Part shown: in pieces, positions 1 through 32,990 of the stretch
How positions within the stretch are numbered: the stretch's first letter is position 1
Layout of the letters: every line of letters starts with the position of its first letter
Source of the DNA: Mycolicibacterium chubuense
Lineage (GTDB): Bacteria; Actinomycetota; Actinomycetes; Mycobacteriales; Mycobacteriaceae
Direction: 5' to 3'
Assembly (NCBI RefSeq): GCF_001044255.1
Contig: NZ_JYNX01000035.1
Span: 153,979-217,978 of the forward strand
Length of the DNA: 64,000 nt
Program-made: the position numbers and the translations under genes
Notes under the pieces: model-generated
What the model was told of the DNA's origin: nothing
Databases searched by the model: none
The model's input: the letters and a program-made list of their open reading frames with translations, nothing else

Positions 1-105
1 GCACAGCAGTTTCAGCAGCAACTGACCCGGCTCGAGCATCTCCGCCGACTCTGCGAGGCAGAGGCTCTCGACGGATCTCTGCGATGGGTCAACGCAGATG
101 CGTGA
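1..105 (+). CDS. C-terminal end of an unidentified protein (cut by window edge)
   Basis: An open frame enters from the left edge and stops with TGA at 103-105, giving 34 residues rich in Gln, Leu, Arg and Glu that would form an amphipathic helix. Its end overlaps the end of the convergent epimerase gene by 17 bases, a spacing normal for this locus. There is too little sequence to assign a family. It may be the tail of a further sugar-modifying or glycosyltransferase gene of the polysaccharide cluster, but this is only a guess from position. Confidence 0.35.
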   Translation, partial: AQQFQQQLTRLEHLRRLCEAEALDGSLRWVNADA

Positions 106-643
106 GCAACTGCTGCCATCCGGGCGCGCCGGCGTCGCGCGCCGACACCCGGGTGATCGGGAGAGGCCAGGTGACCGCGAGGTCCGCATCGTCGTGCCTC
201 ACGGCGATGTCCTCCCGCGGATCGTGCGGACGGTCGATGCGGTAGCACACATCGGCTGTGGGAGTGAGCGATTGGAAGCCGTGCAGGAATCCCGGCGGGA
301 TGTAGAGGTGGCGGAACTGCTCATCGTCGAGCCGGAATGCCTGCCAGCGCCCGAAGGTGGGCGACCCGGGCCTCACGTCGACGACGACGTCGTGGACGGC
401 GCCGTGGGCACACCGGACCAGCTTGGCCTCCCCACGCCCGCTGCGGCCGTGCATTCCGCGCACCACGCCTTGCACCGACCGCGATTGGGAATCCTGGATG
501 AACCGGGCGGACGCCCCGGGTTCGCCGAGGTGTTCATCGAAGATCTCGGCGTCGAACGTCCTGGTGAACAATCCGCGGTCGTCCCGGAACGGATCGGGCA
601 CCATGACCAGGACGCCGGACAACTCTGTCTGTTCGACACGCAC
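89..643 (-). CDS. dTDP-4-dehydrorhamnose 3,5-epimerase family protein (RmlC-like)
   Basis: Cupin-fold epimerase of the RmlC family, which epimerises C3 and C5 of a 4-keto-6-deoxy nucleotide sugar in the cytoplasm. With the GTG start at 643 it is 184 residues, the usual family length. The signature stretch FIQDSQSRS then RGMH is at 48-65, and the expected catalytic residues His65, Tyr134 (in DVCYR) and Asp170 (in SARD) are all present; the Tyr-Tyr that often follows is replaced by Pro-His, so substrate preference may differ. An upstream start at 691 would overlap the start of the divergent methyltransferase gene, so 643 is preferred; that leaves 14 bases between the two starts. It probably supplies a deoxysugar precursor for the polysaccharide, but no rmlA, B or D is in the window. 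Confidence 0.85.
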   Translation of the reverse strand: MRVEQTELSGVLVMVPDPFRDDRGLFTRTFDAEIFDEHLGEPGASARFIQDSQSRSVQGVVRGMHGRSGRGEAKLVRCAHGAVHDVVVDVRPGSPTFGRWQAFRLDDEQFRHLYIPPGFLHGFQSLTPTADVCYRIDRPHDPREDIAVRHDDADLAVTWPLPITRVSARDAGAPGWQQLLTHLR

Positions 644-657
644 GAAGCCATGCTGCC

Positions 658-1806
658 ATGACCGCGTGCCGAGCGTGTCGGAGTTCTGCACTCGTGCCGG
701 TGCTCGACCTGGGCACGGTCCCGGCGGCTGACCACTTTCCGCCGGCTTCCGAGCCTGTCGACGAGTCCGAAGCGTGTCACGCGCTGGCGATGGATCTGTG
801 CCGACGGTGTGGCCTGGCTCAACTGTCCTATGACGGCACGATTCCCGCCGAGCCGCGAGGCGTCGAACCGATGGCGCTGCGGGAGCAGGCCGCCGAGGCG
901 CTCCGGCGGGTCGCCGACGCAGGATGGCTGCGCGGGACGACGTTGCGCGAGTTCGGCAGTCCCCACGGAGGATCGTGGTCGTCGCTACTCGCGGACCGGC
1001 ACCACGTGGTCGGTGCGCCGGCGCACATCGTGCTGGACAGCTTCGGCATCATGCACGAGCCCGACCAACGCGCGGCGTTCGCCGCACGTGCCGCGGCCAC
1101 CGCGCCGGACGGTGTCCTCCTGCTGCACTACCACTCACTTGCCACGATCGTGCGGCTCGGGCAGTGGAATGCACTGCGGCACGGTCATTTCGCCTACTAC
1201 TCGCTCACCGCACTCGTCGGACTGCTCGGCGCAGCCGGGATGGGCGTAGCCACCGCCTGGGAGTTCGATCTGTACGGCGGCACCGTGTTGGTCGCCGCGG
1301 TGCACGGCCACACCGCGCCGGACGCCGGCGTGCGCGACATCCTCTCTCGCGAATCGGCACTGGGTGTCACCGAACCGGCTGCGGTGAGCGGACTTCAGCA
1401 TGCGGCGCAGCGGCACATGCGGCGACTGCGCCGATGGCTCGACGCCGAGGCCGACAACGGTCACCGGGTGTATGCGTACGGCGCTGCGTCTCGTGCCGTC
1501 TCCCTGTTCAGCAGCGCGGGGATCGACCGGCGTCGCCTCGCCGCCGTCGCCGACGCGTCGCCGGCCAAGCAGGGACGCCGTATGCCGGGAACCGACGTGC
1601 CGATCATCGGTCCCGACGAACTCGTGCGGGCTGATCCGGATCACATCCTGCTGACCATTCCTGATCTCTACGACGAAGTGCACCAGCAGTTTCCGCAGCT
1701 TCGCGGGCGCTGGTGGATCGACACCCCGGATGGCGATCCGTCCGGCGGCGCGGAAACTCCACACCCGACCACCTCGAGGGGGATGGCATGTCCGGTCAGC
1801 GGTTGA
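658..1806 (+). CDS. C-methyltransferase-like protein (zinc-binding N-terminus, degenerate SAM domain)
   Basis: 382 residues with the layout of the NDP-sugar C-methyltransferase family (TylC3/TcaB9 type). An N-terminal zinc ribbon has Cys4, Cys7, Cys48 and Cys51; a shortened central Rossmann-like part spans about 70-215; the C-terminal domain has YAYGAASRA at 273-281 and KQGRRMPGTDVPI. The SAM-binding loop, normally an acidic residue plus a GSNDG-like turn, reads EFGSPHGGSW at 98-107. The motif usually seen as Tyr-His-Glu-His reads Arg174-His-Gly-His177, so a tyrosine and a glutamate thought important in TcaB9 are missing. It may still methylate a sugar, or may only bind one. Its end overlaps the next gene by 19 bases, suggesting coupled translation. 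Confidence 0.7.
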   Translation: MTACRACRSSALVPVLDLGTVPAADHFPPASEPVDESEACHALAMDLCRRCGLAQLSYDGTIPAEPRGVEPMALREQAAEALRRVADAGWLRGTTLREFGSPHGGSWSSLLADRHHVVGAPAHIVLDSFGIMHEPDQRAAFAARAAATAPDGVLLLHYHSLATIVRLGQWNALRHGHFAYYSLTALVGLLGAAGMGVATAWEFDLYGGTVLVAAVHGHTAPDAGVRDILSRESALGVTEPAAVSGLQHAAQRHMRRLRRWLDAEADNGHRVYAYGAASRAVSLFSSAGIDRRRLAAVADASPAKQGRRMPGTDVPIIGPDELVRADPDHILLTIPDLYDEVHQQFPQLRGRWWIDTPDGDPSGGAETPHPTTSRGMACPVSG

Positions 1807-3125
1807 TGGGCATCAGCGTGCACGGGCTCGGTTACGTCGGCTGCGTCTCAGCGGCGTGTTTCGCCGCAGAGGGTCACCGGGTCATCGGTGTCGACGTGAA
1901 TTCCGACAAAGTGGACGCGCTGCGATCGGGTAGGTCACCGATCGTCGAGGAACACATCGGCGAATACATCGCACAGACCGTGACCGACGGCGCGCTCTCG
2001 GTCACCACCGACGCGGATGCGGCGGTGATGGCCAGCGACATCTCCCTGGTGTGTGTCGGCACACCGTCGGCCCCCGGCGGGGGGCTGTCCACCGGTTTCC
2101 TGGAGCAGGCGACGGCCGCCATCGGCACCGCACTCGCCAGGAAAGACGGTTGGCACGTCGTCGTCTATCGCAGCACCATGGTGCCGGGAACATGCGATGA
2201 ACTGCTGATCCCACTCCTGGAACGGACGTCACACAAACGCGCCGGCATCGACTTCGGCGTGTGCGTGAATCCCGAGTTCCTGCGCGAAGGATCGAGCGTT
2301 CGAGATTTCCATCAACCTCCCAAGACCGTGGTGGGCGAAACCGACCGGCGCAGCGGAGAGATCGTCATGGACCTCTACGACGGTCTGCCCGGACCGCGGT
2401 TCCACGTCCCGATCAGAGTCGCCGAGATGGTGAAGTACGTCGACAACAGCTTTCACGCACTCAAGGTGGGTTTCGCCAACGAGGTCGGCGCGATCTGTAA
2501 CGCCCTGCAGCTGGATTCCCATGCGGTGATGGACATCTTCCTGGCCGACACGAAGCTGAACATCAGCGGCGCCTACCTGCGACCGGGCTTCGCGTTCGGC
2601 GGATCGTGCCTTCCCAAGGACGTCCGCGCACTCACCCACACCGCGCGCCGCAACGACATCGACGTGCCCCTGTTGGCCAATGTGTTGACCTCCAACGAAG
2701 TCCATCTGCGCCGGGCCGTCGACTTCGTGATCAAAGCCGACCACCGCAGGGTCGGAATCTTCGGTCTGTCCTTCAAACAGGGCACCGACGACCTTCGGGA
2801 AAGTCCGATGGTGGAGCTGGCAGAACGCCTGATCGGCAAAGGTTTCGACGTCAAGATCTATGACGCCAACGTCAGCCTGTCGCGGCTGACCGGCGCGAAT
2901 CGCACCTATATCGAACAGCGGCTGCCGCACATCGGACACGCCCTCGTCGACGATGTCGACGCCGTCCTGCGCCACGGCGACGTTCTGATAGCCGGATCGG
3001 CCGCGCCCGAGGTCGTCGAGACCCTGTCCCGCGCGCGAGCGGATCAGCTCGTCATCGATCTGGTCCGGCTTCCCGAAGCAGCGGCGTGGCGTGATCGGCC
3101 GAACTACGCGGGCATCGCGTGGTGA
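1788..3125 (+). CDS. GDP-mannose 6-dehydrogenase (AlgD-type)
   Basis: 445-residue cytoplasmic NAD-dependent nucleotide-sugar dehydrogenase. It oxidises C6 of the sugar nucleotide to a carboxylate in two steps. The Rossmann loop GLGYVG is at 13-18, NPEFLREGSS at 161-170, catalytic Cys274 lies in FAFGGSCLPKDVRAL (268-282), and DDLRESPMVELAERLIGKG follows. These stretches, and the terminal GIAW (GICW in AlgD), resemble Pseudomonas AlgD more than UDP-glucose dehydrogenases, so GDP-mannuronate is the likeliest product; UDP-glucuronate is the alternative. The ATG at 1788 follows a GAGGGGG ribosome-binding site and is preferred over the in-frame 1713. It is expected to supply a uronic acid to the polysaccharide made by the neighbours. 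Confidence 0.85.
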   Translation: MSGQRLMGISVHGLGYVGCVSAACFAAEGHRVIGVDVNSDKVDALRSGRSPIVEEHIGEYIAQTVTDGALSVTTDADAAVMASDISLVCVGTPSAPGGGLSTGFLEQATAAIGTALARKDGWHVVVYRSTMVPGTCDELLIPLLERTSHKRAGIDFGVCVNPEFLREGSSVRDFHQPPKTVVGETDRRSGEIVMDLYDGLPGPRFHVPIRVAEMVKYVDNSFHALKVGFANEVGAICNALQLDSHAVMDIFLADTKLNISGAYLRPGFAFGGSCLPKDVRALTHTARRNDIDVPLLANVLTSNEVHLRRAVDFVIKADHRRVGIFGLSFKQGTDDLRESPMVELAERLIGKGFDVKIYDANVSLSRLTGANRTYIEQRLPHIGHALVDDVDAVLRHGDVLIAGSAAPEVVETLSRARADQLVIDLVRLPEAAAWRDRPNYAGIAW

Positions 3126-3205
3126 CCGCTACCGAGTCACACCGGAGTCCAATCCGGCCGGCGGTGTCGCAGGGACACGCGGCCCCTCGAGGAGGTAATG
3201 AAGAA

Positions 3206-4507
3206 ATGCCCGGTCACATCCTGATTCTGGTGGAGAACCTGTCAGTGCCCTTCGACCGCCGAGTGTGGCAGGAGAGTCGCGCGTTGGTCGACGCCGGCTT
3301 CGACGTCACCGTGATCTGCCCGCAGGGCGCCAAGCAGGACCGCGAGGACGAGGTGGTGGTCGACGGTGTGCGCATCCTGCGCTATCCCCTGCGTGCCGCC
3401 ACCGGAGGCCCGATCGGCTACCTGCGCGAGTACTCGGCGGCACTGTGGCACACCCTGCGGCTGGCGCTGAAGGTGCGTCGGGAAAGGCGTGTCGACGTGG
3501 TGCACGCCTGCAATCCGCCCGATCTGTTGTTCCTCATCGCCGTCGTCCTGCGTGTGGGGGGAACGCGATTCGTCTTCGACCACCACGATCTGGTGCCGGA
3601 GCTGTTCGAGTCGCGCTTTGCCGGCGGTCCGCGGTTCCTGCACACGGTGACCCGGCTGACCGAGCGACTCACCTTCGCCGCCGCCGACGCGGTGATCTCG
3701 CCCAATGAGAGCTATCGCACGGTGGCCCTGACCCGCGGCAGGAAGAACGCAGACGACGTCGTGGTCGTGCGGAGCGCGCCTGATCTCGACCGCTTCGTCC
3801 GCTGCGAATCCGACGCCTCACTTCGCCGGGGTAAGAGGTACCTGCTCGCCTATCTCGGGGTGATGGGGCCGCAGGACGGTGTCGACTACGCGCTTCGGGC
3901 CGTGAAGATTCTGCGTGAACAGATCGGGCGCGACGATTTCCACTGTGTCTTCATGGGTTCCGGCGACGTCTTCGACGACATGGTCGCCCTGAGCAGGGAA
4001 CTGGGAATCGACGACGTGGTCGAGTTCACGGGGCGGGTGCCCGACGAGTTCGTCATGCGGTGTCTGTCCACCGCGGATCTGTGTCTGTCTCCCGACCCGT
4101 GGAATCCGCTCAACGACGTGTCGACGATGAACAAGGTCGTCGAGTACATGGCGATGGGTCGACCGATCGTGTCGTTCGATCTCAAGGAAGCGCGTGTTTC
4201 GGCGGGTGAGGCGGCTCTCTACGTGGCGCCGAACGACGAGTTCGCTTTCGCGAAAGCGATCGACGAGCTTCTCCACGACGAGCGGCGCCGCCGGCGGATG
4301 GGCGCGCTGGGCCGGGAGCGCATCGAACAGAAGCTCTCGTGGGAGGTCTCCCGCCGGAATCTGGTGAATTTCTACCGGCAGCTGCTTCCCAGTGGGCGAC
4401 CGTCTGATTCACTCCAGCCGGCGGATACGAGGCACGTACAGATCCAGGTCGCGCACCCGATCGACGTGCACGAGAAGATCTTCCACGTCGTCGAGGGGGT
4501 GCAGTAG
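3206..4507 (+). CDS. Glycosyltransferase family 4 protein
   Basis: 433-residue GT4 (GT-B fold) enzyme that would transfer a sugar from a nucleotide donor to the growing lipid-linked repeat on the inner face of the membrane. The N-terminal VPFDRRVWQESRALVDAG is typical of a GT4 subgroup common in exopolysaccharide operons. The donor-binding half carries the STMNKVVEYMAMGRPIVSFD region near 310-330. The ATG at 3206 has a perfect AGGAGG ten bases upstream, which decides it over the GTG at 3119 that would overlap the dehydrogenase gene. The 3' end overlaps the convergent SDR gene by 99 bases. Acceptor and donor cannot be told from sequence. Confidence 0.88.
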   Translation: MPGHILILVENLSVPFDRRVWQESRALVDAGFDVTVICPQGAKQDREDEVVVDGVRILRYPLRAATGGPIGYLREYSAALWHTLRLALKVRRERRVDVVHACNPPDLLFLIAVVLRVGGTRFVFDHHDLVPELFESRFAGGPRFLHTVTRLTERLTFAAADAVISPNESYRTVALTRGRKNADDVVVVRSAPDLDRFVRCESDASLRRGKRYLLAYLGVMGPQDGVDYALRAVKILREQIGRDDFHCVFMGSGDVFDDMVALSRELGIDDVVEFTGRVPDEFVMRCLSTADLCLSPDPWNPLNDVSTMNKVVEYMAMGRPIVSFDLKEARVSAGEAALYVAPNDEFAFAKAIDELLHDERRRRRMGALGRERIEQKLSWEVSRRNLVNFYRQLLPSGRPSDSLQPADTRHVQIQVAHPIDVHEKIFHVVEGVQ

Positions 4508-5272
4508 GCGACCGTTGAGTTCGTCACCGGACCCCGTGGCCAGCCAGGTGATCAAGGCAGTGGACTGCTGCGCCGGCACCGATTCTCGACGGGCGAGCTC
4601 CGGCATCCAGCGCTTGGCGGCTGCGGAATGGACCAGTGACCGGGTCATCGCGGTGTCGGTGAAGCCCGGCGCGACAGCGAAAGCGAACAGGCCGTGGGGC
4701 CGCAGTGATGCCGCCAGGTCCTCGGTCAGGCTCACCAGCCCCGCTTTCGCTGCGGCATAGGCGCTTTGGTACGGACTGGGCCGCACGGCCGCGTAACTCA
4801 CCACATTGACGATGCGTCCGCGCCCACGCGCGATCATGCCCGGGATCACCTCGTGGGAACAGAGGAAGGCGCCGACCAGGCTCGTCTGCACATCTGTCCA
4901 CCAATCGACCGGATCGACCTGCCAGACCGGACCGACGGCACGCATCGTGGCGGCGTTGTTCACCAGCACGTCGATGTCGCCCAGAGATCCCTCGAGCGTC
5001 TCGACGGCGCGACGCACCGAAGCGTGGCACGTGACGTCCGCGACGGCGACGGCGGCGGGCGTTCCCCTGACGGCGATCTGATCGGCCGTCGCGACGAGTT
5101 CCTCGCGGGTACGAGCGACCAGTCCTACCGCGAAACCACTGTCCGCCAGAGCTATCGCCGTCGCCTGGCCGATACCCCGACCCGCTCCGGTGACGACTGC
5201 TACCGCCGTGCCAGGGTTCCTGCGATCCTGCCGGGAACACTGTCCGTCGAGGGCCGCCGGTGGATCAGACAC
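4409..5272 (-). CDS. SDR family NAD(P)-dependent oxidoreductase
   Basis: 287-residue classical short-chain dehydrogenase/reductase. It has the cofactor loop TGAGRGIG near the N-terminus, NNAA after the fourth strand, a serine in NVVSYAAV and the active-site YAAAK. The GTG at 5272 overlaps the stop of the upstream asnB-like gene by eight bases, so it is probably translated from the same transcript; a longer frame reaching 5371 would lie inside asnB and is rejected. The extra C-terminal 70 residues end in an Arg-rich tail overlapping the GT4 gene in antisense. Substrate unknown; in this setting a keto-sugar or another precursor is plausible. Confidence 0.8.
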   Translation of the reverse strand: MSDPPAALDGQCSRQDRRNPGTAVAVVTGAGRGIGQATAIALADSGFAVGLVARTREELVATADQIAVRGTPAAVAVADVTCHASVRRAVETLEGSLGDIDVLVNNAATMRAVGPVWQVDPVDWWTDVQTSLVGAFLCSHEVIPGMIARGRGRIVNVVSYAAVRPSPYQSAYAAAKAGLVSLTEDLAASLRPHGLFAFAVAPGFTDTAMTRSLVHSAAAKRWMPELARRESVPAQQSTALITWLATGSGDELNGRLLHPLDDVEDLLVHVDRVRDLDLYVPRIRRLE

Positions 5273-7106
5273 GACAGGGCCGCGTCCCCACCAGCCCTTG
5301 GTGCCAGACCTCCAGGGACAGCAACGCCCAGATCCGTGGCTGCTCGTTGCGCTCTCCGAGCGAGTGATCACGCAACAGTCGCATCACGGCGGTCCGGTCG
5401 AACGTGGAGCCGACGAACGAGGAAGGTCCGGTCAAGGAGTCGAAGGCCATGTCCTGCAGCCCGCCTCGAAACCACTTGTCCAGGGGGACCTTGAATCCCA
5501 GCTTGGGTCGATCCACCACCTCCGCGGGCAGCCGCTTGCGAGCCACCTCTTTGAGTACCCACTTGCTCGTCCCACCGCGAAGCTTGACGTTGCTGGGCAG
5601 CGCGAACGCGAGTTCCACCAATCGATGGTCGAGGAAGGGCGGACGAAGTTCGACCGATGCGGCCATCGACATGCGGTCTCCCCGCTCGAGGAGGTTGTCG
5701 CAGAGCCATGTTCGGATGTCGGCGTAGAGCATGCGGTGCAGGGCGTCGCCACGTCCATCAGTGAAGGGACCGAGGGTGCTGCGCGCGGGTTGTCCGCCGA
5801 GCAGTGCGGCTCGCTCGGGGGAGGTGAACGGTGCGAACCATCCGCGCATGCGCTCCGAGTACGTGTCTTCCGACATCGCGCGCATCGCGATGCCGAGCCG
5901 GGCGTGATGAGCGGGCAGGGTCTTCTCCACCCGCCGCAATGCCGCCGACGGCAGAACACCCAGCCAGCGTGTCGCCTCGGCGTATCGGTGCTTCGGGTAG
6001 CCGGCGAACAGCTCGTCGGCACCCTCACCGGAGAGCAGGACCTTCACATGCTGCCGCGCCAACTCGGCGAGCCGGAAGACGGCGACGTCGGACGGCTCGG
6101 ACAACGGAGCGTCGCGGTGCCAGCTCAGTGTCGACCAGCACCGCTCGAAGTCGTCCGCAGTGACCGTCAGCTCGTGATGACGGGTGCCGACGTGATCGGC
6201 GACCCTACGGGCCCAGTGTGTTTCGTCCAGAGAATCGTCGCCGAATCCCGCGGAGAACGTGTTGAGCTCACCGCCCGAATGCATTTCGGCCATCAGCGAG
6301 GTGACAAGGCTGCTGTCCAGTCCCCCGGACAGATAGGCACCGACAGGCACATCGGCGACGAGCGCCTCTCGGACGGACGCGGTGAGCGCTTCCTCGACCA
6401 GGTCGACAGCGCCGCTGGGGGTGATCGCGATGGTGGTCGGCTCCGCGGGGAGTTGCCAGTATGCAGAGCAACGGATGTCGCCGGATGAGGTGAGAACGAG
6501 GTGATGGCCCGGCGGAATCTTGCGCACTCCTTGCAGAAGCGTGTACGGCGCAGGAACCGATCGGTAGGTCAGATAGTCGTAGAGACTGTCCTCGTCGACC
6601 GTCGGGGCACCGATGACGGGCAACAGGCCCTTGATCTCGGACGCGAACGCGAACAGTTTGTCCGTCTTGTAGTAGTACAGCGGCAGGATTCCGAGGCGAT
6701 CACGGAACAGATGAATGTCGCCGGTACCCGAATCATGAAGAGCGAAGGCGAATTGCCCGCGTAACCGGTCGACGCCTGCGGGCCCGTACTTGTCGTGGAG
6801 CGCGAGCAGAACCTCGGTGTCACCCAGGGTGGTGAAGGGATACGACAGCTCAGAACGCAGTTGGCGGTAGTTCAGGATCTCGCCGTTGAACACCACATGA
6901 GATCGCCGATCGGCCGATGCCATGGGTTGCTCCGAACCCCCGGGATCGATGATCGACAATCGGCAGTGCGCCAGCCCGACGTCGCGGTGGGTCCAGATAC
7001 CGGTCGCGTCGGGCCCGCGATGGGCCATCGATCTGATCATCGCGGCGACCAGGGGTTCGTCCACGGGCGAGCCGTCCAACCGGCGAATCCCGGCTATTCC
7101 GCACAT
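5265..7106 (-). CDS. Asparagine synthase (glutamine-hydrolysing) family amidotransferase
   Basis: 613 residues with a complete class II glutamine amidotransferase half and a synthetase half. Cys2 in MCGIAGIRR is the N-terminal nucleophile; the synthetase half has the PP-loop SGGLDSS near 265 and LLSGEGADELFAGY. AsnB proper makes asparagine from aspartate, but close homologues inside polysaccharide loci (for example the exosortase-associated amidotransferases and WbpS-like proteins) are thought to amidate uronic acids or other sugar carboxylates. Its position beside an SDR, GT4 genes and a sugar-acid dehydrogenase favours the latter role. It leads a minus-strand pair with the overlapping SDR. 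The family is certain; the acceptor is an inference. Confidence 0.88.
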   Translation of the reverse strand: MCGIAGIRRLDGSPVDEPLVAAMIRSMAHRGPDATGIWTHRDVGLAHCRLSIIDPGGSEQPMASADRRSHVVFNGEILNYRQLRSELSYPFTTLGDTEVLLALHDKYGPAGVDRLRGQFAFALHDSGTGDIHLFRDRLGILPLYYYKTDKLFAFASEIKGLLPVIGAPTVDEDSLYDYLTYRSVPAPYTLLQGVRKIPPGHHLVLTSSGDIRCSAYWQLPAEPTTIAITPSGAVDLVEEALTASVREALVADVPVGAYLSGGLDSSLVTSLMAEMHSGGELNTFSAGFGDDSLDETHWARRVADHVGTRHHELTVTADDFERCWSTLSWHRDAPLSEPSDVAVFRLAELARQHVKVLLSGEGADELFAGYPKHRYAEATRWLGVLPSAALRRVEKTLPAHHARLGIAMRAMSEDTYSERMRGWFAPFTSPERAALLGGQPARSTLGPFTDGRGDALHRMLYADIRTWLCDNLLERGDRMSMAASVELRPPFLDHRLVELAFALPSNVKLRGGTSKWVLKEVARKRLPAEVVDRPKLGFKVPLDKWFRGGLQDMAFDSLTGPSSFVGSTFDRTAVMRLLRDHSLGERNEQPRIWALLSLEVWHQGLVGTRPCRV

Positions 7107-7151
7107 GTCACGCCGCCCAAGGCTGTGCCGGACGACGCGTGAGCCGCGCGG

Positions 7152-7823
7152 TCACAGGTCGTCGACGTCGATGAGCCCGTCCTCGATCGCACGAGCGATC
7201 AGGAGGGTCTTGGTCGGGGCGGCCCTACCGACCGCGGCGTACTTGGCTCGTGCGCGCTGTACGTGGGTGGCGACCGTCGACGGCTCGATGTAGAGCAGCT
7301 TCGCCACTTCGTCTTTGTTGTCGGTGCGCAGCCACGCCGACAACACTTCCCGTTCCCGTCGAGTGAGCCGGGGCCGACCGACGAGCTCGACGCGTTCCAG
7401 GGCGTCTGCCATGCGCGGCGGGCGATAGGTGACACCGGACCGGGCTGCGCAGATGGCACCGCGCAGATGCTTTCCATCCTCGGACTTCCCGACGTAATTG
7501 ACGGCCCCGGCATCGAGCGCGGTCAGAATCACCTCATCGGAGATGAGATGGGAGTATCCGATGACCCGGTAACCGGCCCGGCAGAGAAGTCGCAACCCGC
7601 CGAAGTCGGGCCCCCGTCCTTCGTGTTCGAGGGCCAGGATGACGACATCCACCGGGGTTTTCTGCGCCGCCTGCAACGCCATGAACTCCGCCGGATGGGC
7701 GAAGTTCCCGACAATCTTGATCGGTGGCTCGTTCCCGGCGACCCAGGCCTCGATGCCGGCGTGCACGACGTACTGGTTGTCGATGATGACGACCGATATG
7801 CCGAGTTCTCCATCTTTGCTCAT
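7152..7823 (-). CDS. LuxR-family response regulator with pseudo-receiver domain
   Basis: 223-residue NarL/LuxR-type DNA-binding protein. The N-terminal 1-130 has the receiver fold, but the phosphoacceptor site reads VVILAL, with Ala64 where Asp is expected; the acidic pocket keeps only Asp15, while the conserved Lys113 is retained. The C-terminal LuxR helix-turn-helix spans about 152-212 (LTRREREVLSAW, then PSTVATHVQRARAKY). The ATG at 7823 follows GGGAAGGG and is preferred over 7889. It sits beside the long non-coding region that precedes the GT2-Wzx operon and is the obvious candidate local regulator, probably acting without phosphorylation. Confidence 0.85.
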   Translation of the reverse strand: MSKDGELGISVVIIDNQYVVHAGIEAWVAGNEPPIKIVGNFAHPAEFMALQAAQKTPVDVVILALEHEGRGPDFGGLRLLCRAGYRVIGYSHLISDEVILTALDAGAVNYVGKSEDGKHLRGAICAARSGVTYRPPRMADALERVELVGRPRLTRREREVLSAWLRTDNKDEVAKLLYIEPSTVATHVQRARAKYAAVGRAAPTKTLLIARAIEDGLIDVDDL

Positions 7824-8344
7824 GTGATGCCCTTCCCCCGTGTCCGCCACCTGCGCGCGGCCCTCCAGGGGTCGAGCATACGACGCCAACCCGCAGGAAC
7901 AGCAAACATTGAGTTACTTCTGACGACACGCTCTGTCAGTTAAAAGTACGACTTGTCCGGGAAATCGCAAAGTAACCTATCGAATGGAAACACATTGGCC
8001 TGCGCTGGTCGAGCACCGATTCCACGCCGCGGCGCGGCCGGCGGCCGCCGGGCTGGCAAAGATCCCGCTGGCCGTTGCAGGCAGCCCGGGCATTTCCGGA
8101 CCCCCGGTGCCGACCCGCGCGGTCACCCCGGGTACCCGACGGATACCTCGAAGCCTGGCTAATTAACTTGGCTGCTGCCGATCCCCGGCGCCAGCTCGAC
8201 GTCGCGACAGTGCCGCCGAGCGTCCGGGCTCGGCGCGTCCTGCACCCCGTATCCCACGTGCGACCGACATCGTCTGTCGGTCGTCGGACCGCACTTCGGA
8301 CGGTTGCCGAGTCTCCCGGGCAAATCCCACGTATCCAGATCAGC
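7824..8344. promoter_or_regulatory. 521-base divergent regulatory region of the polysaccharide locus
   Basis: No convincing gene lies between the divergent LuxR regulator and GT2 genes. The stretch near 7905-7985 is relatively AT-rich and holds an inverted pair GTTACTT (7913-7919) and AAGTAAC (7969-7975). Inside it CTGAC and GTCAG flank ten bases (about 7920-7939). These are plausible binding sites for the adjacent regulator. Another AT-rich patch with AATTAA is near 8160. The open frame running into GT2 from 8075 is read as untranslated leader because it lacks family similarity. Confidence 0.4.
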
Positions 8345-16732: not shown

Positions 16733-16784
16733 CTCGACCGCCGCGGCGGTCGGACACGACGTCGGGGTGAGGAGATCATGCTCG

Positions 16785-18209
16785 TCAGGACGCCGACAGG
16801 ATCGGTCGCGGCATGGGCACAGCGTCGGACCCGTCGACCAGGACCGCCCCGAACACATCCGCGTGCGCTTTACTCAGGGAGTCGGCGGCCGAACTCACAT
16901 CTCCTGCTCGCGTCACATTCTTCACCACGGTCAGGACGGTCAAATCAGCTGCCGCACAAATGAGTTGCGTGTCACCGGACGCAGCGACCGGGGGCGCCAT
17001 CATCACGATCACGTCAGCTACCGTACGGATCTCGTCGAGGACGGCAGCAACGCGCTCGCGGGTGATCCGGCGCCAGTCCGATCCGTCGGTACGGCCGCCG
17101 GGCAGGATCTTCAAGGTCTCGATGTCGCTGTCCCGCAGGAGCGCGTGCACCAGGGTGCTGTCATCGAGTGCCTCGAGGAATCCGTGGGAATCGGTGTCGC
17201 ACCAACCCCCACGATCCGCACCGATCAGAACGGTGCGATAGCCCTGCCGGGCCCAGAACCCGGCGAGTTCTCCGGCCAGCGGCGACGGCGCCTGCGTACC
17301 GGAGCAGTTGGCCACGACGACCGCGGCGTTCTTCGGGAGATCCTCCAGGCTGATCAGGTTGGCGAGCGTACGCACGCGTTCCTGACGCATCTGAATGGCA
17401 TGGACGTTCGCGCCCGCGGGTATCTCGATGAGCGGTTCGACGGTGGTCTTCTCGCGGATGTCGTCGAGGTTCTTGAGACGTGTCGAGACGGTCGCCAGGG
17501 CCAGTGCGGACAGGATCCCCAACGCGAGTCCGCCGATCCCGCCCAGTGCGATCTGCAGTCCCGTCTGCGTTGAGATCTCGGTGACGCCCGCCCTGGGCTG
17601 CAGCACCTGCAATTCGTTGGTCCTGTCCGCACTCATCTCCATGATCCTGTTCTGCAGCGCAGCGGCTTCCGCAGGATCATCCGGCGCGCCGGTGGCCAAC
17701 ACCTTCTCCAGCCTGCGCTCCGCGTCCTTGATGGCGGCGCCGAGGCGGGCCTGCTGCATGGCGTTGATGTCGTTGCGGAAGGCGCCGGCCATCCTCTCGG
17801 CGGCGTCCTGCGCGACCCTCGGATCACCCGCAGTCGCGTCGACCGTCACGATCGGACTGCTTGCGGCCGTCGCTGCTTGGACCTCGACTCCCGGCGGGAT
17901 CTCGCTCTTGGCCGCCAACCGGGCATTCACCGCCTCATCGTTGAACAGTTGAACGTAGCCCTGGACGATCACCGCGTCCTGATCGGTAGGCCGGTTCGGG
18001 GACGCCACCACCAGCGTCGATTTGCCGACATACGTGGTGTGGGCCTGCGCGACCGACACGGTCGCCGCGCCTGCGCCCAGAACGGCGAACGCGATAACCA
18101 GCCACCGGTAGTTCCAGACCTGGCGCACCCGCCGTCCGGGTGATGCGGCTCGGTGATCGCCGGGCACATCGATGTAGCGCTCGGATTCTGCCTTCTTGGA
18201 TGCGGTCAT
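16785..18209 (-). CDS. Polysaccharide co-polymerase (Wzz-like) with degenerate BY-kinase domain
   Basis: 474 residues. A first membrane helix (about 35-53), an extracytoplasmic Wzz region, a second helix (about 219-241) and a cytoplasmic domain (294-460) shaped like a bacterial tyrosine kinase. All three ATP motifs are lost: the Walker A position reads NCSGTQAPSPLAGELA with no GKT, the A' position LIGADRGG instead of an Asp-x-Asp, and the B position IVMMAPP instead of a terminal Asp-x-Pro-Pro. There is no tyrosine-rich tail. It should therefore set chain length without kinase activity. AAGGA lies eight bases before the ATG, and the ATG shares ATGA with a small upstream frame. Confidence 0.85.
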   Translation of the reverse strand: MTASKKAESERYIDVPGDHRAASPGRRVRQVWNYRWLVIAFAVLGAGAATVSVAQAHTTYVGKSTLVVASPNRPTDQDAVIVQGYVQLFNDEAVNARLAAKSEIPPGVEVQAATAASSPIVTVDATAGDPRVAQDAAERMAGAFRNDINAMQQARLGAAIKDAERRLEKVLATGAPDDPAEAAALQNRIMEMSADRTNELQVLQPRAGVTEISTQTGLQIALGGIGGLALGILSALALATVSTRLKNLDDIREKTTVEPLIEIPAGANVHAIQMRQERVRTLANLISLEDLPKNAAVVVANCSGTQAPSPLAGELAGFWARQGYRTVLIGADRGGWCDTDSHGFLEALDDSTLVHALLRDSDIETLKILPGGRTDGSDWRRITRERVAAVLDEIRTVADVIVMMAPPVAASGDTQLICAAADLTVLTVVKNVTRAGDVSSAADSLSKAHADVFGAVLVDGSDAVPMPRPILSAS

Positions 18210-18445
18210 CGGGATCCTTCCATCAGCCAGTCGCTGTCGTGGTGGTTCGCACCCGCGACCAGATGCTTCGGAGAGCTCAGCTCCACGTCGACGCCGGGAG
18301 GCTCGGCGCTCTGGCTACCTGAGGTGACACGGTTCGCACGTGAAACGACACTGTCCACAACTGCCCCCGTCCCATCCGTCAATTTCAGGACTGAGTGTGG
18401 CCCAGCTACCGTGCGTCCGGTAGACAACTGCTCAGTGTGAAACAC
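18206..18445 (-). CDS. Possible small protein of unknown function, coupled to the co-polymerase gene
   Basis: An open frame whose TGA overlaps the co-polymerase ATG (ATGA). From the GTG at 18445 it encodes 79 residues; the frame stays open to 18562, but the added part is Arg/Pro-rich and looks non-coding. The product has no membrane segment and many Ser, Val, Gly and His residues, and no family is recognised. The four-base overlap is the main reason to list it. It could instead be a leader of the minus-strand operon. Confidence 0.3.
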   Translation of the reverse strand: MFHTEQLSTGRTVAGPHSVLKLTDGTGAVVDSVVSRANRVTSGSQSAEPPGVDVELSSPKHLVAGANHHDSDWLMEGSR

Positions 18446-18724
18446 AACGTGCGACGGGCCTTGTCGACGATTCGGAGGACAATCCCGCATACGTCGAATC
18501 CCCCGCCTGCCGCACGGTGGCGGGGATCGCTCCTCGTCGCCGGGCATGCGCCGGTGTCGCATGCCCTCACACGCTTGGGCGGATTCGCCCCACTGGCCAT
18601 TCCTACGAAGTCGGACCTGCCAGCAATCGGGCTTGGCCCGATCGGTTCGGCCTGATGCCGGCGGTCATCCCGTCGACCGCTGAAAGTGTCAGCTACATAG
18701 TCGATTCCCTGTAGCATCGGCCGG

Positions 18725-20014
18725 ATGGGCGCGATTGCACGCGATCGACTCGGCCTGAATCCGACCGCGGCGCCGCCGGCGCTGGCGGCGTTCGTGGTCT
18801 GCGCCGTGGCCGTCGCGGTCTCGGCGTCCGGAGTCGTGGCGACATCGGCAGGCGTGGACCAGCGGCAGTACCACTGGGTGACCATCCAGTACTTCCGGGA
18901 GATCTTTCCGCGCATCGATATCGTCAATGTGGACACGGCGACCGGACCTCTCTATCACCTGATCGTCGCTGCTGTCTCGGGCCCACTTCACCTGGGCGAG
19001 TTCGGAACTCAGTTTCTCTCCAGCTTCTTCGCGGCCGGTCTCGCGGCGCTCGCAGTGTGGTACGTGGGCATCGTGACAGAGCCGGTGCTGCGGGTGCTGG
19101 CGGTGGCGCCGCTGCTGCTCTCGCCCTACTTCTGGGAGTCGGCTCTGTGGATGCTGACAGACGCCGCGGCACTCCTGTTCGCCTTCGCCGCGTTCGTGTT
19201 GCTCCTGCGCCGCGAGTCGATGGACGGCGTGGGTTGTGTGAGCGCCGGACTGCTGCTGGCAGCCGCGGTCGCGACGCGGCAGACATACGTGTGGTCGCTG
19301 GTCCCGACGATCGCGGTGATCTGGTATCAGCACCGTGAATCAGATTCCGGGACAAGGCTGTTGCGTGTGCTGGCGGTGGCAGCACCCGCGTTGGTGGTAC
19401 TCGCCGGGTTGGTGGCACTGTGGCACGGCTTTCTCCCGCCGCGATTCCACGAGATGAACGCTGCCAATCGCAGCTGGCTTTCCCCGACGTACTGCGCCGC
19501 GGTGGCCGCAGTGTTCTTCGTGCCGATCTCACTTGCCACGTATGGTCGTGGCCGTCCGCGGCTGTCGACCACGCTGGGAGCGGGCGCGGCTGTCGCGCTG
19601 CCCGCACTGGTATGGACGAGTTCTGCAACGACGGGAACCGACAATGCGCGGCGCGGTGGACTGATCTGGGAGTCCGTGGAGCACACTCCGCTGCTGGATG
19701 GGCGTTCACTACTGCTGACGCTGCTCGCCTTCGCCGGTGGCTGTTCCATCTGCCACGTTCTGCTCCTGCTCGACAACACCACGGCGATTCTGATCGGGAC
19801 CGGCCTCATCGGTCTGGCGGCGACGATGACAGCGGGAGGGCAGCTCTACCAGAAGTACTTCGAATTGCCCGTCGCTGCAATGGCATTGATCGCGATCTGC
19901 GCACTAGCAGCCAACGGCGCGATCGAACGTCGCTGGCCACTGGTCGGATTGGCGGCACTGCAGGCCCTGTTGACGGCAGCGCTGGTGGCGGGGCCGGTCA
20001 TCACCGCGCCGTGA
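18725..20014 (+). CDS. Multi-span membrane protein resembling ALG10/DIE2 glucosyltransferases (GT-C fold)
   Basis: 429 residues with about 10-11 hydrophobic helices. The first outer loop has Asp45 in GVDQRQYHWV and, further on, DTATGPLYHL (70-79). This matches the pattern of the eukaryotic ALG10 (GT59) family, where an acidic residue followed by a T-x-P-G-x-Y-like stretch forms the lipid-phosphate-sugar active site. A polyprenyl-phosphate-sugar-dependent glycosyltransferase acting outside the membrane is therefore suggested, perhaps decorating the polymer. It starts at an ATG after the 279-base gap from the small minus-strand frame. Family match is by eye and only moderately sure. Confidence 0.65.
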   Translation: MGAIARDRLGLNPTAAPPALAAFVVCAVAVAVSASGVVATSAGVDQRQYHWVTIQYFREIFPRIDIVNVDTATGPLYHLIVAAVSGPLHLGEFGTQFLSSFFAAGLAALAVWYVGIVTEPVLRVLAVAPLLLSPYFWESALWMLTDAAALLFAFAAFVLLLRRESMDGVGCVSAGLLLAAAVATRQTYVWSLVPTIAVIWYQHRESDSGTRLLRVLAVAAPALVVLAGLVALWHGFLPPRFHEMNAANRSWLSPTYCAAVAAVFFVPISLATYGRGRPRLSTTLGAGAAVALPALVWTSSATTGTDNARRGGLIWESVEHTPLLDGRSLLLTLLAFAGGCSICHVLLLLDNTTAILIGTGLIGLAATMTAGGQLYQKYFELPVAAMALIAICALAANGAIERRWPLVGLAALQALLTAALVAGPVITAP

Positions 20015-20038
20015 CCCGCGGGCGATCCTACGGCGTCG

Positions 20039-20692
20039 TCAGCCTCGCACGGCCACGATCGACTTGACCAGCCCTGCGAAGCGCTCGTGCCATATCGACG
20101 ATGTCGGAAAGTACCGCCGCATCTGAGAAATGGAGAGCAGGTCGACCTGGTCGACAGCGTTCTCGGCGTCCTCACGGGTGTAGGTGTGCACGTTTCCGCG
20201 GTTCCAGCGCAGAGATATCTGCACGCGGGCCTCGTACGGAAGCCACTGCATGCCGGGAAACACCCAGTGCGGCTCGACCGGGAAGTACCGGTACGGCGTC
20301 TGTACCCAATATCGCTCGGCGAGAACGCCAATCGTGTCTGCGAGGCGCTGACGTTGGGGGTGGCCACCGACATGCTCGATGAGCGAGTTCGAGAACACCA
20401 GATCGAAACGCTCGTGGCGGACAGCGGCGGGCAGGTCGCACGCGTCGGCTTGGACGACGTCGACGGTCGGTTCGTCCGAGGTCAGTGGCAGGAGATTGAC
20501 GATCGTGACGGCCCGGGGCCGCACGGGAGCGAGAGCCCATGACTCCGGGGTGCCGCCGAGGTCGATCACGCGCATCTCCGAGATCGCCGGAAAGCGTTGT
20601 GCGAAACACTGCCAGCGACGTGTCCTGGCGCGGCCCGCCAGCGAGTGTGCCGAATCGAAATCGGCGATGGTGTCATGCAACCAGTTCGTCAC
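20039..20692 (-). CDS. Class I SAM-dependent methyltransferase
   Basis: 217 residues with a Rossmann methyltransferase core: RVIDLGGTPESW is motif I, VVQADACDLP motif II, and FDLVFSNSLIEHV motif IV with the post-motif SNSLIEH typical of small-molecule methyltransferases. A Trp/Tyr-rich segment (TPYRYFPVEPHWVFPGMQW) probably builds the acceptor pocket. The GTG at 20692 follows GGGGGAG and starts just before the conserved helix; the longer frame to 20758 adds a hydrophilic piece without similarity. It converges on the ALG10-like gene with 24 bases between them. A sugar or lipid O-methylation is plausible. Confidence 0.82.
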   Translation of the reverse strand: MTNWLHDTIADFDSAHSLAGRARTRRWQCFAQRFPAISEMRVIDLGGTPESWALAPVRPRAVTIVNLLPLTSDEPTVDVVQADACDLPAAVRHERFDLVFSNSLIEHVGGHPQRQRLADTIGVLAERYWVQTPYRYFPVEPHWVFPGMQWLPYEARVQISLRWNRGNVHTYTREDAENAVDQVDLLSISQMRRYFPTSSIWHERFAGLVKSIVAVRG

Positions 20693-20857
20693 CGCTCCCC
20701 CATCCACCTCAGCGTTGCTGCGCGACGCCACCTGTCTACGGTCCCCACCTTCGTGCATGCCACGTCAGGTGCTGAGACTTCCGCCGGTCTTGACTACCTT
20801 GAGGCGACAGAGGTGTCGGTCATCCGGGGGACATCGCGAAGACGATTTCGCAGCCGA

Positions 20858-21697
20858 TCATCGCGACAGCCCGGCCTCGGTCGCGGCGACGCGAAATCCG
20901 GCGTGATACACGATCCCGGTCGGTGCGATACCACGCTGGCGGTAGTAGCCCTCTTTGTAATAGATGCCTGACGTGCCCGGAACCATGGTCCTCACGGTGT
21001 AGGTGTTCGAGCCGTTGGTGAACATCTGCGGCACACCGTTCATCCACAGCCTGAGGTAGCCTTCGCTGTCCGACGCGGAGTACTTGATCTCCATCATGAC
21101 GTCGTGCCAGATCCCTACCGCCAACGGCGTGTCGTAGATGTCCAACCTGTCGATGACGACGTTCGGCGCTGACTGCTTGTGGACGATCAGCGACCACTGT
21201 CCGTTCTTCTCGTTCACATCCCAGCCGACCGGTGGACTGCCGCCGCAGTTGCAGTGCCACTGATTGGTCACACCCCAGCCCAGCGACGCATGGTCCTGAG
21301 GGAAGCTGGGATCGAACTTGACAGAGAATGCGTACCAGCGCGTCTGACCCTCGGTACCGCCGCTCAGCGGGGTCGTACTCTGCACCTCGGAGCGATCCCC
21401 GGACGGAAAGCCGGGATAGTCACCGTCGCGAACCTCGAACCTGGCGGCTTTGCCTTTCGCCGGGTCGTCGACGACGGCAGCGGCATATGTCGGCGTGTAA
21501 GCGGCGCCCGACGAGTTGTAGAACTTGTTCTGCACGATGTCCCATTGACTGAAATCACCTGTGCTGTAGTCGCCGACGAACAGCGCAGTGTCACCGGACG
21601 CGGGCGGAGCCGCAGTGGTTGTCGGCGCGCACCCCATGCCGCAGGAGAGCACCGCAACAGCCGCCACCCGAGCGAACGTGCTCCTTGATCGACCCAC
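20858..21697 (-). CDS. Secreted polysaccharide lyase (glucuronan/heparin-lyase-like fold)
   Basis: 279 residues. An Arg-rich start, a hydrophobic helix (about 10-20) and cysteines in LSCGMGCAP suggest export, perhaps as a lipoprotein although the lipobox is poor. From about 39 on it is one jelly-roll lyase domain with VGDYSTGDFSQW, GDYPGFPSGDRSEVQ (the Arg-Ser-Glu motif of PL7/PL20-type lyases), FPQDHASLGWGVTNQWH and a C-terminal YYKEGYYRQR. Such enzymes cleave uronic-acid polymers by beta-elimination. It is a close paralogue of the C-terminal domain of the next gene. The GTG at 21697 follows GGGGG. The exact substrate is unknown. Confidence 0.8.
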   Translation of the reverse strand: MGRSRSTFARVAAVAVLSCGMGCAPTTTAAPPASGDTALFVGDYSTGDFSQWDIVQNKFYNSSGAAYTPTYAAAVVDDPAKGKAARFEVRDGDYPGFPSGDRSEVQSTTPLSGGTEGQTRWYAFSVKFDPSFPQDHASLGWGVTNQWHCNCGGSPPVGWDVNEKNGQWSLIVHKQSAPNVVIDRLDIYDTPLAVGIWHDVMMEIKYSASDSEGYLRLWMNGVPQMFTNGSNTYTVRTMVPGTSGIYYKEGYYRQRGIAPTGIVYHAGFRVAATEAGLSR

Positions 21698-21848
21698 TGC
21701 GCACCCCCGATTGAAAGGACGACGGCGTCCGGCGATCAGTGAGTCGAGCACTGACGGGAGCCATCAGCCCCAACGTACGCCGGTTGTGACGGGTCCGACG
21801 ACGAGTCCGGTGGGACGAGGCAACCGGCAGCGGGCGGTCGACCCCGGA

Positions 21849-24491
21849 CTAGAGTCCCAGTCCTGCCTGGGTTGAGGCCACCCGGAATCCGGCGTGATAG
21901 ACGATTCCGGTGGGTGCGAGGTCCCGTTGCCGGTAGTAGCCCTCCTTGTAGTAGACACCGCCGCCACCGGGGACCAGCGTCCGCACGTGATATGTGGTCG
22001 AGCCGTTGGTGAGGGTTTGGGCGACGCCGTTCTCCCACAGCCGCACTGAACCGATGGTGTCCGAGGCCGACCAGGTGACCTCCATCGTGATGTCGTGCCA
22101 CGTGCCGACGTTCAGCGGGGTCTGCCAGAGGATGACCTTCCCCAGGTACTGCGCTGGTGCGGACTGCCTCTCGGCCATCAGAGACAGATAACCGTTCTGT
22201 CCGTTGACGATGAAGGCCAGCGGCGGGCTGCCACCGGCATCACTGGCGTGCCACTGGTTCACCAGCCCCCAGCCAAGGTTGGCGTGGTTCTGCGGGAATC
22301 CGGCATCGAACTTCGTGGAAAGCGAGTACCACGATGTCTGTCCCTCGGTGGCACCGCCGCTCAGCGCGGTCGTGCTCTGCACCTCGGAGCGATCCCCCGA
22401 CACGAATCCCGGATAGTCGCCCGAGCGCACTTCGAACCGCGCCACTTTGCCCTTCACCGGATCGTTGACGATCGTCGCGGGATACTGCGGTACGTAGTCC
22501 TTGCCGTAGGAGTTGAAGTACTTGTTCTGCACCACCGACCACTGGCTGAAGTTGCCGGTGCTGTAGTCGCCGACGAAGATCGGCGGTGCGACGGCCGTGT
22601 TGGCGACGGTGACGGTGACCGGCGCGGACACCGCGGTGTTGCCGCTCGTGTCGATTGCCCGTGCGGTCAACGTGTGCGTTCCGTTGCTGACCCCGGCGCT
22701 GTTCCAGGACACGCTGTACGGCGACGAATTATCCTGACTACCAATGACTTTGTTGTCGACCAGGAACTGCACCCCGGCCACCGCGACGTTGTCCGACGCG
22801 GTCGCGGTCAGGGTCACCGTCCCCGACACTGTCCCGCCGGGCACCGTCACGGACACCGTCGGCGCGAGGGAGTCGACAGCGGTGTTGCCGACGGTGAAGA
22901 CGATCGGCGCCGACAGTGCGGTGTTGCCGCTGGTGTCGGTCGCCCGCGCGGTCACCGTGTGGGCGCCGTTGGCGGCCCCGGCGCTGTTCCACGACACGCT
23001 GTAGGGCGACGACGGATCTGCGGCGCCCACCGCCGCGTTGTCGACCAGGAACTGCACGCCGGCGACCCCGACGTTGTCCGTCGCCGTCGCGGTGAACGTC
23101 ACCGTGCCCGAGACGGTCCCGGCCGGAACGCTCACCGATACCGTCGGCGCCGTGGTGTCGGGAACGGCAGCCGGTGCTGAGGCCGCTCTGAAGGTGGCCA
23201 CCTGCATGAGCCACCTGCTGTAGCCGCGCAACGACGCCGTCGCGCTGTACCTCCCGGCGGTGCTCACCGCCTTGTCCTGGGCGATGTCGCCGTCGGGCGT
23301 GGTGATGATCCGGGAACTGAAACCGCTGCCGGCGGCGGTGAATCCCCCGGTGGTGATGCCGGCGCCGAACACGAGTTCGTTGCCCGCCGTGGTCCTCACC
23401 GTTCCGCTGCTGGCCGACCGTCCCCAGCCCTTCCCTGACGCACCCACGTCGAACGGATCGACCGGGTCGAGTCCGCGGTACTCAAGTGCACGCAGGTCCA
23501 CGTACGGCGTGGCGGTGTTGAACACGACGGTCACCGTGTTCGAACCCGCGGCGGCGCTGCTGATCCCCGAGGCGTAGTAGATGGCCTGACTGATCCCCGA
23601 CCCTCGCGCCGTCGGCACCGCGGCGCGGTAGGTGTTGCCGGCCGAATCGGTGACGGACCTGATCGTCGATGTCGCGTTGTTCCAGCCGATGGCAACGACA
23701 TTCGTGTCACCGGCGGTCTGCGCACCCGAGTACTTCACGGCAACCGAGGTCTGCGGTGTCTGCGGCGTCGCCGCAGCGACCTGTACGAAGGTCGGTGTCA
23801 CGGCGACCGTCGCCAGCGCTGTCGGCGCGGTGGAGGTCGTCGACCGGAGCGCGGCGGTCGGCTCCGCCTGGCCGGACACCCGGCTCGTCCAGGCCACCAG
23901 AAGGGACAGCAGGGCGGTCTGCGCGGGCGTCGCCGGCTGCGGACGTGCCGACAGGTCACGGGTGAGCGTCTCGAGCACCCTCACCACCCGCGGCCGGGCG
24001 GGGACGGATTGGCTCGCCGGCGTCACCACAGACGTATCGGGCGCCGGCGCTGCACTGGCGGCCAGCCGTCGCGGCACTCGCGTCGCGCGCACGGTGTCAC
24101 TGACCGCCTCCCCGGTGGCGGAATCTGCCGCGCCCGCGGTGTCGTCATCCCGGCGCAATCGGTGTCCGGCGCGGGCAGTCCTGTCCGCGACGCCGGGCCC
24201 GGCCGCGCTGCGGAACCGCTTCTTCCCCGTGGTCGGCGATTCGGCGTCGTCGCCCTTGGCAGCGGCTCGCCGTTCGGCGCGGGTCACCGAGGGTCCTGCG
24301 CCGGCTGCCGCGCCACCGTCGGCCGACGATTGCGCGGCGGGTGAACCGGTGCTGTCCGCAAACGCGACACCCGCACCGCCGAGAAGTGCGCTACCGATGC
24401 CCAGCGCCACGGCGAGCGCGCCCACTCGGCCGACATGACGGGCTGATCCATGAGAAATGCAGATCGCATACGAGGGGTTTGCTGTGTTCAT
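21849..24491 (-). CDS. Large secreted polysaccharide lyase with Ig-like repeats
   Basis: 880 residues. A Sec signal (about 20-46, ending GVAFADS) of the kind frequent in mycobacterial exported proteins precedes a long Ala/Ser/Arg-rich low-complexity linker (47-240). A beta-rich module of unknown type spans about 247-436, two nearly identical bacterial Ig-like domains 447-536 and 541-630, and a polysaccharide lyase domain 638-880 with GDYPGFVSGDRSEVQ and NQWH. The lyase domain closely parallels the neighbouring shorter gene, so one arose from the other. It should act on a uronic-acid polymer outside the cell, with the middle modules binding carbohydrate or spacing the enzyme from the wall. GGAG lies upstream of the ATG. 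Confidence 0.82.
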   Translation of the reverse strand: MNTANPSYAICISHGSARHVGRVGALAVALGIGSALLGGAGVAFADSTGSPAAQSSADGGAAAGAGPSVTRAERRAAAKGDDAESPTTGKKRFRSAAGPGVADRTARAGHRLRRDDDTAGAADSATGEAVSDTVRATRVPRRLAASAAPAPDTSVVTPASQSVPARPRVVRVLETLTRDLSARPQPATPAQTALLSLLVAWTSRVSGQAEPTAALRSTTSTAPTALATVAVTPTFVQVAAATPQTPQTSVAVKYSGAQTAGDTNVVAIGWNNATSTIRSVTDSAGNTYRAAVPTARGSGISQAIYYASGISSAAAGSNTVTVVFNTATPYVDLRALEYRGLDPVDPFDVGASGKGWGRSASSGTVRTTAGNELVFGAGITTGGFTAAGSGFSSRIITTPDGDIAQDKAVSTAGRYSATASLRGYSRWLMQVATFRAASAPAAVPDTTAPTVSVSVPAGTVSGTVTFTATATDNVGVAGVQFLVDNAAVGAADPSSPYSVSWNSAGAANGAHTVTARATDTSGNTALSAPIVFTVGNTAVDSLAPTVSVTVPGGTVSGTVTLTATASDNVAVAGVQFLVDNKVIGSQDNSSPYSVSWNSAGVSNGTHTLTARAIDTSGNTAVSAPVTVTVANTAVAPPIFVGDYSTGNFSQWSVVQNKYFNSYGKDYVPQYPATIVNDPVKGKVARFEVRSGDYPGFVSGDRSEVQSTTALSGGATEGQTSWYSLSTKFDAGFPQNHANLGWGLVNQWHASDAGGSPPLAFIVNGQNGYLSLMAERQSAPAQYLGKVILWQTPLNVGTWHDITMEVTWSASDTIGSVRLWENGVAQTLTNGSTTYHVRTLVPGGGGVYYKEGYYRQRDLAPTGIVYHAGFRVASTQAGLGL
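22602..23153 (-). repeat. Two tandem in-gene repeats encoding Ig-like domains
   Basis: Two adjacent units of about 270 bases (22884-23153 and 22602-22871) encode Ig-like domains that share TDNVGVAGVQFLVDN / SDNVAVAGVQFLVDN and SPYSVSWNSAG. The near identity in both protein and DNA points to a recent tandem duplication, so copy number may vary between strains. Confidence 0.8.

Positions 24492-30446: not shown

Positions 30447-32990
<2,544 letters not shown>

Follow-up and report, generated by a model that had tools for sequence, protein, structure and literature searches.

A recurrent actinobacterial Wzx/Wzy-type locus in Mycolicibacterium chubuense, predicted to build a uronic-acid surface polysaccharide and encoding uronan-lyase-like proteins

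What kind of surface polymer would a mycobacterium build with a locus that combines the parts of a Wzx/Wzy exopolysaccharide pathway with an AlgD-type sugar-nucleotide dehydrogenase and two lyase-like proteins? We asked this of a 64,000-nucleotide stretch of the Mycolicibacterium chubuense genome (5.95-Mb, 96 contigs), here called the window (C35:153979-217978). The locus very probably builds a uronic-acid surface polysaccharide, and our best guess is that the uronic acid is mannuronic acid. The original prediction had placed a locus of this kind at 89..24491, and every gene class that it named was found there by open reading frame (ORF) and family scans, but the true start lies about 5.3 kb beyond the window's left edge (L003 4731-10105, in flank coordinates where L003 position 10000 is window position 0), bringing the locus to a total of ~30 kb.

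The case for mannuronate begins with the dehydrogenase (1788..3125, plus strand), a predicted GDP-mannose 6-dehydrogenase. When compared with all solved structures, its top match was the GDP-mannose 6-dehydrogenase 1mfz (454.7 bits), the next being a UDP-glucose dehydrogenase (UGDH; 260.4 bits), and the alignment with 1mfz contains 205 identical residues out of 422 and zero gaps. A FastTree tree was built from 15 sequences, with few references: the window protein, ten relatives (one of them from G098, a genome without a match to this Wzy), two solved references and two other paralogues of the same genome. One split in this tree (support 1.000) sets 1mfz and the locus type apart from the three UGDH-type sequences, and another (support 0.998) sets the locus type apart from 1mfz together with the UGDH-type sequences. 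His217 and Asn252 (AlgD numbering) are common to AlgD and all 11 locus-type sequences, and Arg259 is as in AlgD in ten of the 11; all three residues differ in the three UGDH-type sequences. Because of the tree split and the residues shared with AlgD, the enzyme is assigned by sequence to the AlgD-type class, and not to the UDP-glucose type, and its substrate would be GDP-mannose. The original call of an AlgD-type enzyme is therefore upheld by bit scores, gapless alignment, tree and kept catalytic residues. No Alg8/Alg44 synthase or export protein was named among the scanned locus genes, the whole genome not having been searched for these.

Both lyase-like proteins, encoded on the minus strand, score above the curated PF14099 cut-off of 29.9 bits. 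The first (20858..21751; 120.6 bits) looks lipoprotein-like by eye and is probably an exported lipoprotein, while the second (21849..24491; 106.7 bits), also predicted to be exported, carries two Big_7 immunoglobulin (Ig)-like domains and a C-terminal PF14099 domain, and is 62% identical to the first. The modelled fold of the first lyase (Foldseek, VIA) is of the PL20/PL13/PL7 uronan-lyase type, and the motifs Arg-x-Glu, Gln-Trp-His and Tyr-x-Lys-x-Gly-x-Tyr, which we take to be equivalent to those of uronan lyases, are present. Fold, motifs and PF14099 scores agree with the uronan-lyase character first proposed for these proteins. Beyond the left end of the locus, a protein of 2603 amino acids (aa; L002 5612-13423) combines glucose/sorbosone dehydrogenase, PKD, Calx-beta and four Big_7 domains, the last of the same type as those of the second lyase.

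The Wzx/Wzy pathway itself is represented by three proteins, each over its cut-off: an initiating polyprenyl glycosylphosphotransferase (PHPT; L003 4731-6311; TIGR03025 410.2 bits, cut-off 295.55) left of the window, a Wzx flippase (9397..10932, plus; PF13440 185.3 bits, cut-off 23) and a Wzy polymerase of the polymerase/O-antigen ligase family (longest ORF 15332..16858, minus; PF04932 49.0 bits, cut-off 31.7). This much of the original prediction stands, but the contrast it drew with mycobacterial capsules, as products of other kinds of system, is less sharp than it sounds: 106 of the 148 genus genomes encode a PF04932 (Wzy_C-family) protein, which makes the Wzy family nothing unusual among mycobacteria. 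The locus also encodes five glycosyltransferases, one GT2 (8345..9400, plus; PF00535) and four GT4, namely GT4a (3206..4507, plus), GT4b (10932..12122, plus, start approximate), GT4c (13081..14241, plus, start approximate) and GT4d (14203..15339, minus), all identified by family scan.

A Wzz-like co-polymerase (16785..18209, minus) falls below the cut-offs of both PF02706 (15.4 bits, cut-off 25.5) and TIGR01007 (51.2 bits, cut-off 108.05), the latter match relating its C-terminal domain to bacterial tyrosine kinases. A search for the Walker A pattern [AG]xxxxGK[ST] found none in this kinase-like domain or in its counterpart in the 22 homologues that possess one; the sole match, in the homologue of L044, lies at residue 50 in the N-terminal half. 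Two Nocardioides frames, as extracted, were short (239-240 aa) and lacked the domain, and the survey left out the homologue of L042, whose frame was not extractable. Judging from this motif, the co-polymerase would be kinase-dead.

An alignment of five Wzy proteins, used in one scan of genome contigs, found 22 loci: nine in Mycobacterium/Mycobacteriaceae, one in Rhodococcus, three each in Nocardia, Pseudonocardia and Geodermatophilaceae, two in Nocardioides and one on a small contig labelled Acidobacteria. The homologues do occur together, and because the gene set recurs in other genera it is more than a chance assembly. Locus content was scored by tblastn at at least 100 bits within 10 kb on each side of Wzy (less at contig ends), so that low counts are partly due to the flank length; GT4 and SDR (short-chain dehydrogenase/reductase) proteins cross-match. 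Relatives were found for GT4c in 22 of the 22 loci, Wzz in 21 (beside Wzy), GT4a in 20, GT4d in 18, Wzx in 13, GT2 and PHPT in nine each, GT4b in eight and AsnB in four (56-67%). Of the transferases, GT4a is the most conserved across the locus family, at 67-77% in 19 loci and 44% in a twentieth; GT4c ranges from 33 to 65%, although the protein matched at 33% (L048) is perhaps a different GT4, and Wzy shows 39-55% identity across the loci that it served to find. The dehydrogenase family is present in 14/22 loci (11 at at least 60%) and the GalE family in 10/22; a lyase lies in 3/22, with a fourth (L039, 99 bits) cut by the locus end. Across the whole genomes of these loci, an AlgD-type enzyme at at least 60% occurs in 18/22 (not in G152, G154, G158 or G161) and a lyase in 12/22, on the same contig as Wzy in ten of the 12 by coordinates. 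In G149 the main lyase match is on a different contig from Wzy, which has a weak, partial match next to it; in G160 a contig lacking Wzy holds the lyase next to the AlgD-type gene.

The closest content is that of Mycobacterium manitobense (L039; L021/L022 of G028), with the membrane protein, AsnB, Wzz, Wzy, GT4d, GT4c, GT4a, dehydrogenase, GT2, Wzx, GT4b, GalE, lyase and PHPT, and without the branched-sugar cassette described below; Mycobacterium sp. AT1 (L037) has both that cassette and a lyase. Rhodococcus sp. RD6.2 (L044) also carries the locus family with a lyase. Three Nocardia loci (L053, L054 and L056) have two Wzz-like genes each, and L053 and L054 have two Wzx genes, which suggests two polymer systems side by side.

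The association of the lyases with the locus can also be expressed statistically, as hypergeometric p values that ignore kinship. The genus sample (148 genomes) contains Wzy in five genomes and the lyase in eight; the Wzy genomes and the five strong-lyase genomes share four (p 1.3e-6). Among the matches listed, AlgD-type enzymes at at least 50% occur in 11 genomes of this sample and share seven with the lyase (p 9.6e-9), these seven including G084, with an AlgD-type gene split by an insert, and G063, with a lyase remnant. The family sample (301 genomes) holds Wzy in 19, lyase in 13 and both in eight (p 5.4e-8), and in each of the eight a single contig carries both genes, separated by 4.2-12.4 kb. 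With the PF14099 Pfam model, lyases were found in 9/148 genus genomes (14 hits, two of them partial and both in G145) and in 0/14 control genomes. For eleven of the 14 hits, a UGDH/AlgD-family gene is no more than 20 kb away (distances 0.4-18.8 kb; 34-100% identity to the window dehydrogenase), and because of this linkage the PF14099 lyases gain a testable substrate.

Three of these regions have features of their own. The insert in G084 (L028 12066-16726) is of ~3.3 kb, with frames that by eye resemble a transposase and an ATPase, and the lyase frame beside the split gene is open. The short remnant in G063 (L036 10130-10288) adjoins an AlgD-type locus in which the sugar cassette is present as well. 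In G028, contig C148 carries two tandem PF14099 lyases (L032 9066-10602) near another dehydrogenase (32-34% identical), a PHPT and a Wzy_C gene, and is a second lyase-bearing polysaccharide locus of the same genome.

Several observations weigh against a mannuronate polymer cut by these lyases. AlgD Tyr256, which we take to be an active-site residue, if not with certainty a defining one, is Ala in 11/11 locus-type sequences, and structurally the lyase comes closest to a PL20 glucuronan lyase (Trichoderma reesei, 2zzj), not to an alginate lyase. Around the lyases of G028:C15 and G136, stretches of 17.6 and 20 kb were read and contained no UGDH/AlgD-family gene (the third unlinked hit, G145:C157, is on a 12.5-kb contig). 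In the family sample, 11/19 Wzy genomes are without a lyase match and 5/13 lyase genomes are without a Wzy of this type. G033 has Wzy but no lyase and no close AlgD-type enzyme.

The fold match and the replaced tyrosine favour an alternative in which the same Wzx/Wzy polymer has glucuronic (or some other hexuronic) acid as its uronic acid, with lyases of the PL20-like glucuronan type, a possibility that we take seriously but consider unlikely. Among solved structures, GDP-mannose 6-dehydrogenase matches the dehydrogenase far better than any UDP-glucose dehydrogenase does, and the enzyme groups apart from the two other paralogues of its genome. Chemistry from a related genus points both ways: the uronic acid reported from Rhodococcus exopolysaccharides is mostly glucuronic acid (PMC12786566), at variance with mannuronate, whereas one such polymer, from strain p52 grown on acetate, is reported to hold 24.09% mannuronic and 25.34% guluronic acid (PMC11767811).

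The unlinked lyases, and the lyase genomes without this Wzy, would suit a reading in which the polymer is made but the lyases degrade foreign uronans as a catabolic add-on. We think this improbable in view of the linkage of lyase to dehydrogenase gene in 11/14 hits and to Wzy in every family genome having both, and of the lack of any uronate-catabolic gene among the scanned neighbours of the locus; the lyases probably cut the polymer of their own locus. The product might instead be a lipid-linked oligosaccharide or a wall or protein glycan, with the Wzy-family protein acting as a ligase and no polymer exported. PF04932 bears the name O-Antigen ligase, spans both polymerases and ligases, and is common in the genus, yet the pairing with a Wzz-like protein in 21/22 loci and the presence of an initiating PHPT leave us with little belief in a ligase. 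Prophage or plasmid cargo with phage-type depolymerases is highly implausible, for although GC content is lower in the locus (66.2% over 1-24500 and L003 4700-10000) than in the right flank (70.6% over 24501-64000) and Wzy is patchily distributed across the genus (5/148), Wzy had no match in a plasmid collection, the first lyase none in a phage collection, and the lyases, Wzy and membrane protein no PHROG match, and the window contains no tRNA.

A Wzx/Wzy exopolysaccharide containing mannuronate, with lyases that cut its uronic-acid links, is the best explanation, and one that we hold to be reasonably probable. In this model, the PHPT would start a lipid-linked repeat, which the five glycosyltransferases would lengthen in some order, one of them adding mannuronic acid from the GDP-mannuronate of the AlgD-type dehydrogenase. 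AsnB may convert some carboxylates to amides, and a C-methyl-branched sugar may come from the separate cassette. Wzx would flip the repeat and Wzy polymerise it. The length of the chains would be controlled by the Wzz-like co-polymerase, in which the kinase-like domain appears to have lost its ATP-binding loop. Two lyases, one membrane-anchored and the other secreted and fused to Ig domains, could then cut uronic-acid links by beta-elimination, so that the polymer, exported in free or attached form, might be edited or released. More tentatively, and short of calling it probable, we propose an actinobacterial locus family for a partly amidated mannuronate Wzx/Wzy heteropolysaccharide, with an AlgD-type enzyme outside alginate synthase, a dead-kinase co-polymerase and a dedicated PF14099 branch, acquired patchily among environmental mycobacteria as a surface coat not known before.

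Other genes may modify this product. The candidate amidating enzyme for the uronic acid is the AsnB-type glutamine amidotransferase (5265..7106, minus; PF00733 351.6 bits, plus GATase). The sugar cassette starts left of the window and closes with a C-methyltransferase (658..1806, plus; PF08421 and PF08484, middle S-adenosylmethionine (SAM) domain below cut-off) that has a 63% relative in Mycobacterium sp. AT1; it is common, nucleotidyltransferase relatives at at least 66% occurring in 45/148 genus genomes. L003 encodes, left of the window, a C-methyltransferase (inside ORF 6164-7609; PF08484 198.7 bits), a glucose-1-phosphate-cytidylyltransferase-like enzyme (7606-8418; TIGR02623 185.2 bits, below the cut-off of 300.25), a PIG-L protein and an SDR epimerase. 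Two further epimerases are an RmlC-like dTDP-4-dehydrorhamnose 3,5-epimerase (89..691, minus; PF00908 183.9 bits; TIGR01221 157.7 bits, cut-off 155.75) and a GalE-like SDR protein (12116..13087, plus, start approximate; PF01370 183.8 bits).

The locus members now added to those first predicted are a C-methyltransferase and five others. An accessory short-chain dehydrogenase (4409..5371, minus, start uncertain; PF00106) had a match of at least 100 bits in 0/22 relative loci, and neither did the two response-regulator-like proteins have one there, the LuxR-type regulator (7152..7889, minus; PF00196 26.4 bits, cut-off 23.5; receiver domain below cut-off) and the one outside the window (L003 3395-4072, minus). 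A polytopic membrane protein (18725..20014, plus) without a Pfam match at E 0.1 has a 44% relative adjoining AsnB in M. manitobense, and a small SAM methyltransferase (20039..20758, minus) matches PF08241 (22.4 bits, cut-off 21.2). The right flank encodes an AraC/DJ-1 regulator (24914-25894) and a Clp ATPase (30447-32990).

The mycobacterial outer layer is usually described in terms of glucan, arabinomannan and lipids. If our reading is true, a uronic-acid polymer that comes with lyases of its own would give some environmental species an anionic coat together with an enzyme set able to remove it, and would represent a mannuronate-making route other than alginate synthase. Among the papers listed in our literature search, none was seen to describe this locus. 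As in the alginate system of Pseudomonas and Azotobacter, an AlgD-type dehydrogenase and a lyase (there AlgL) are encoded beside biosynthetic genes. Alginate production, however, is synthase-dependent (Alg8/Alg44) and AlgL belongs to PL5, whereas this locus has five glycosyltransferases, Wzx and Wzy, and its lyases are PF14099 proteins. Among the matches listed, these share only 10-20% identity with PL20 2zzj, PL13 heparin lyase I and PL7 alginate lyases, from which they also differ in being lipoprotein-like or fused to Ig domains and encoded in an exopolysaccharide locus. As for the dehydrogenase, an actinobacterial origin of the brown-algal GDP-mannose dehydrogenase is not strongly supported in a 2024 study (PMC11468063). 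Among actinomycetes, the wps-1 to wps-3 loci of Actinoplanes missouriensis resemble this locus in their proposed Wzx/Wzy-dependent pathway (PMC13390465); as differences, the polysaccharide proposed for wps-1 is sulfated, and a word search of the main text found no word starting 'lyase' or 'glucuron'. The main text on the acidic exopolysaccharides of Rhodococcus has 0 occurrences of 'wzy', 'wzx' and 'gene cluster', and the likeness there lies in hexuronic-acid heteropolymers from a related genus (PMC12786566) and in the lyase-bearing locus of strain RD6.2.

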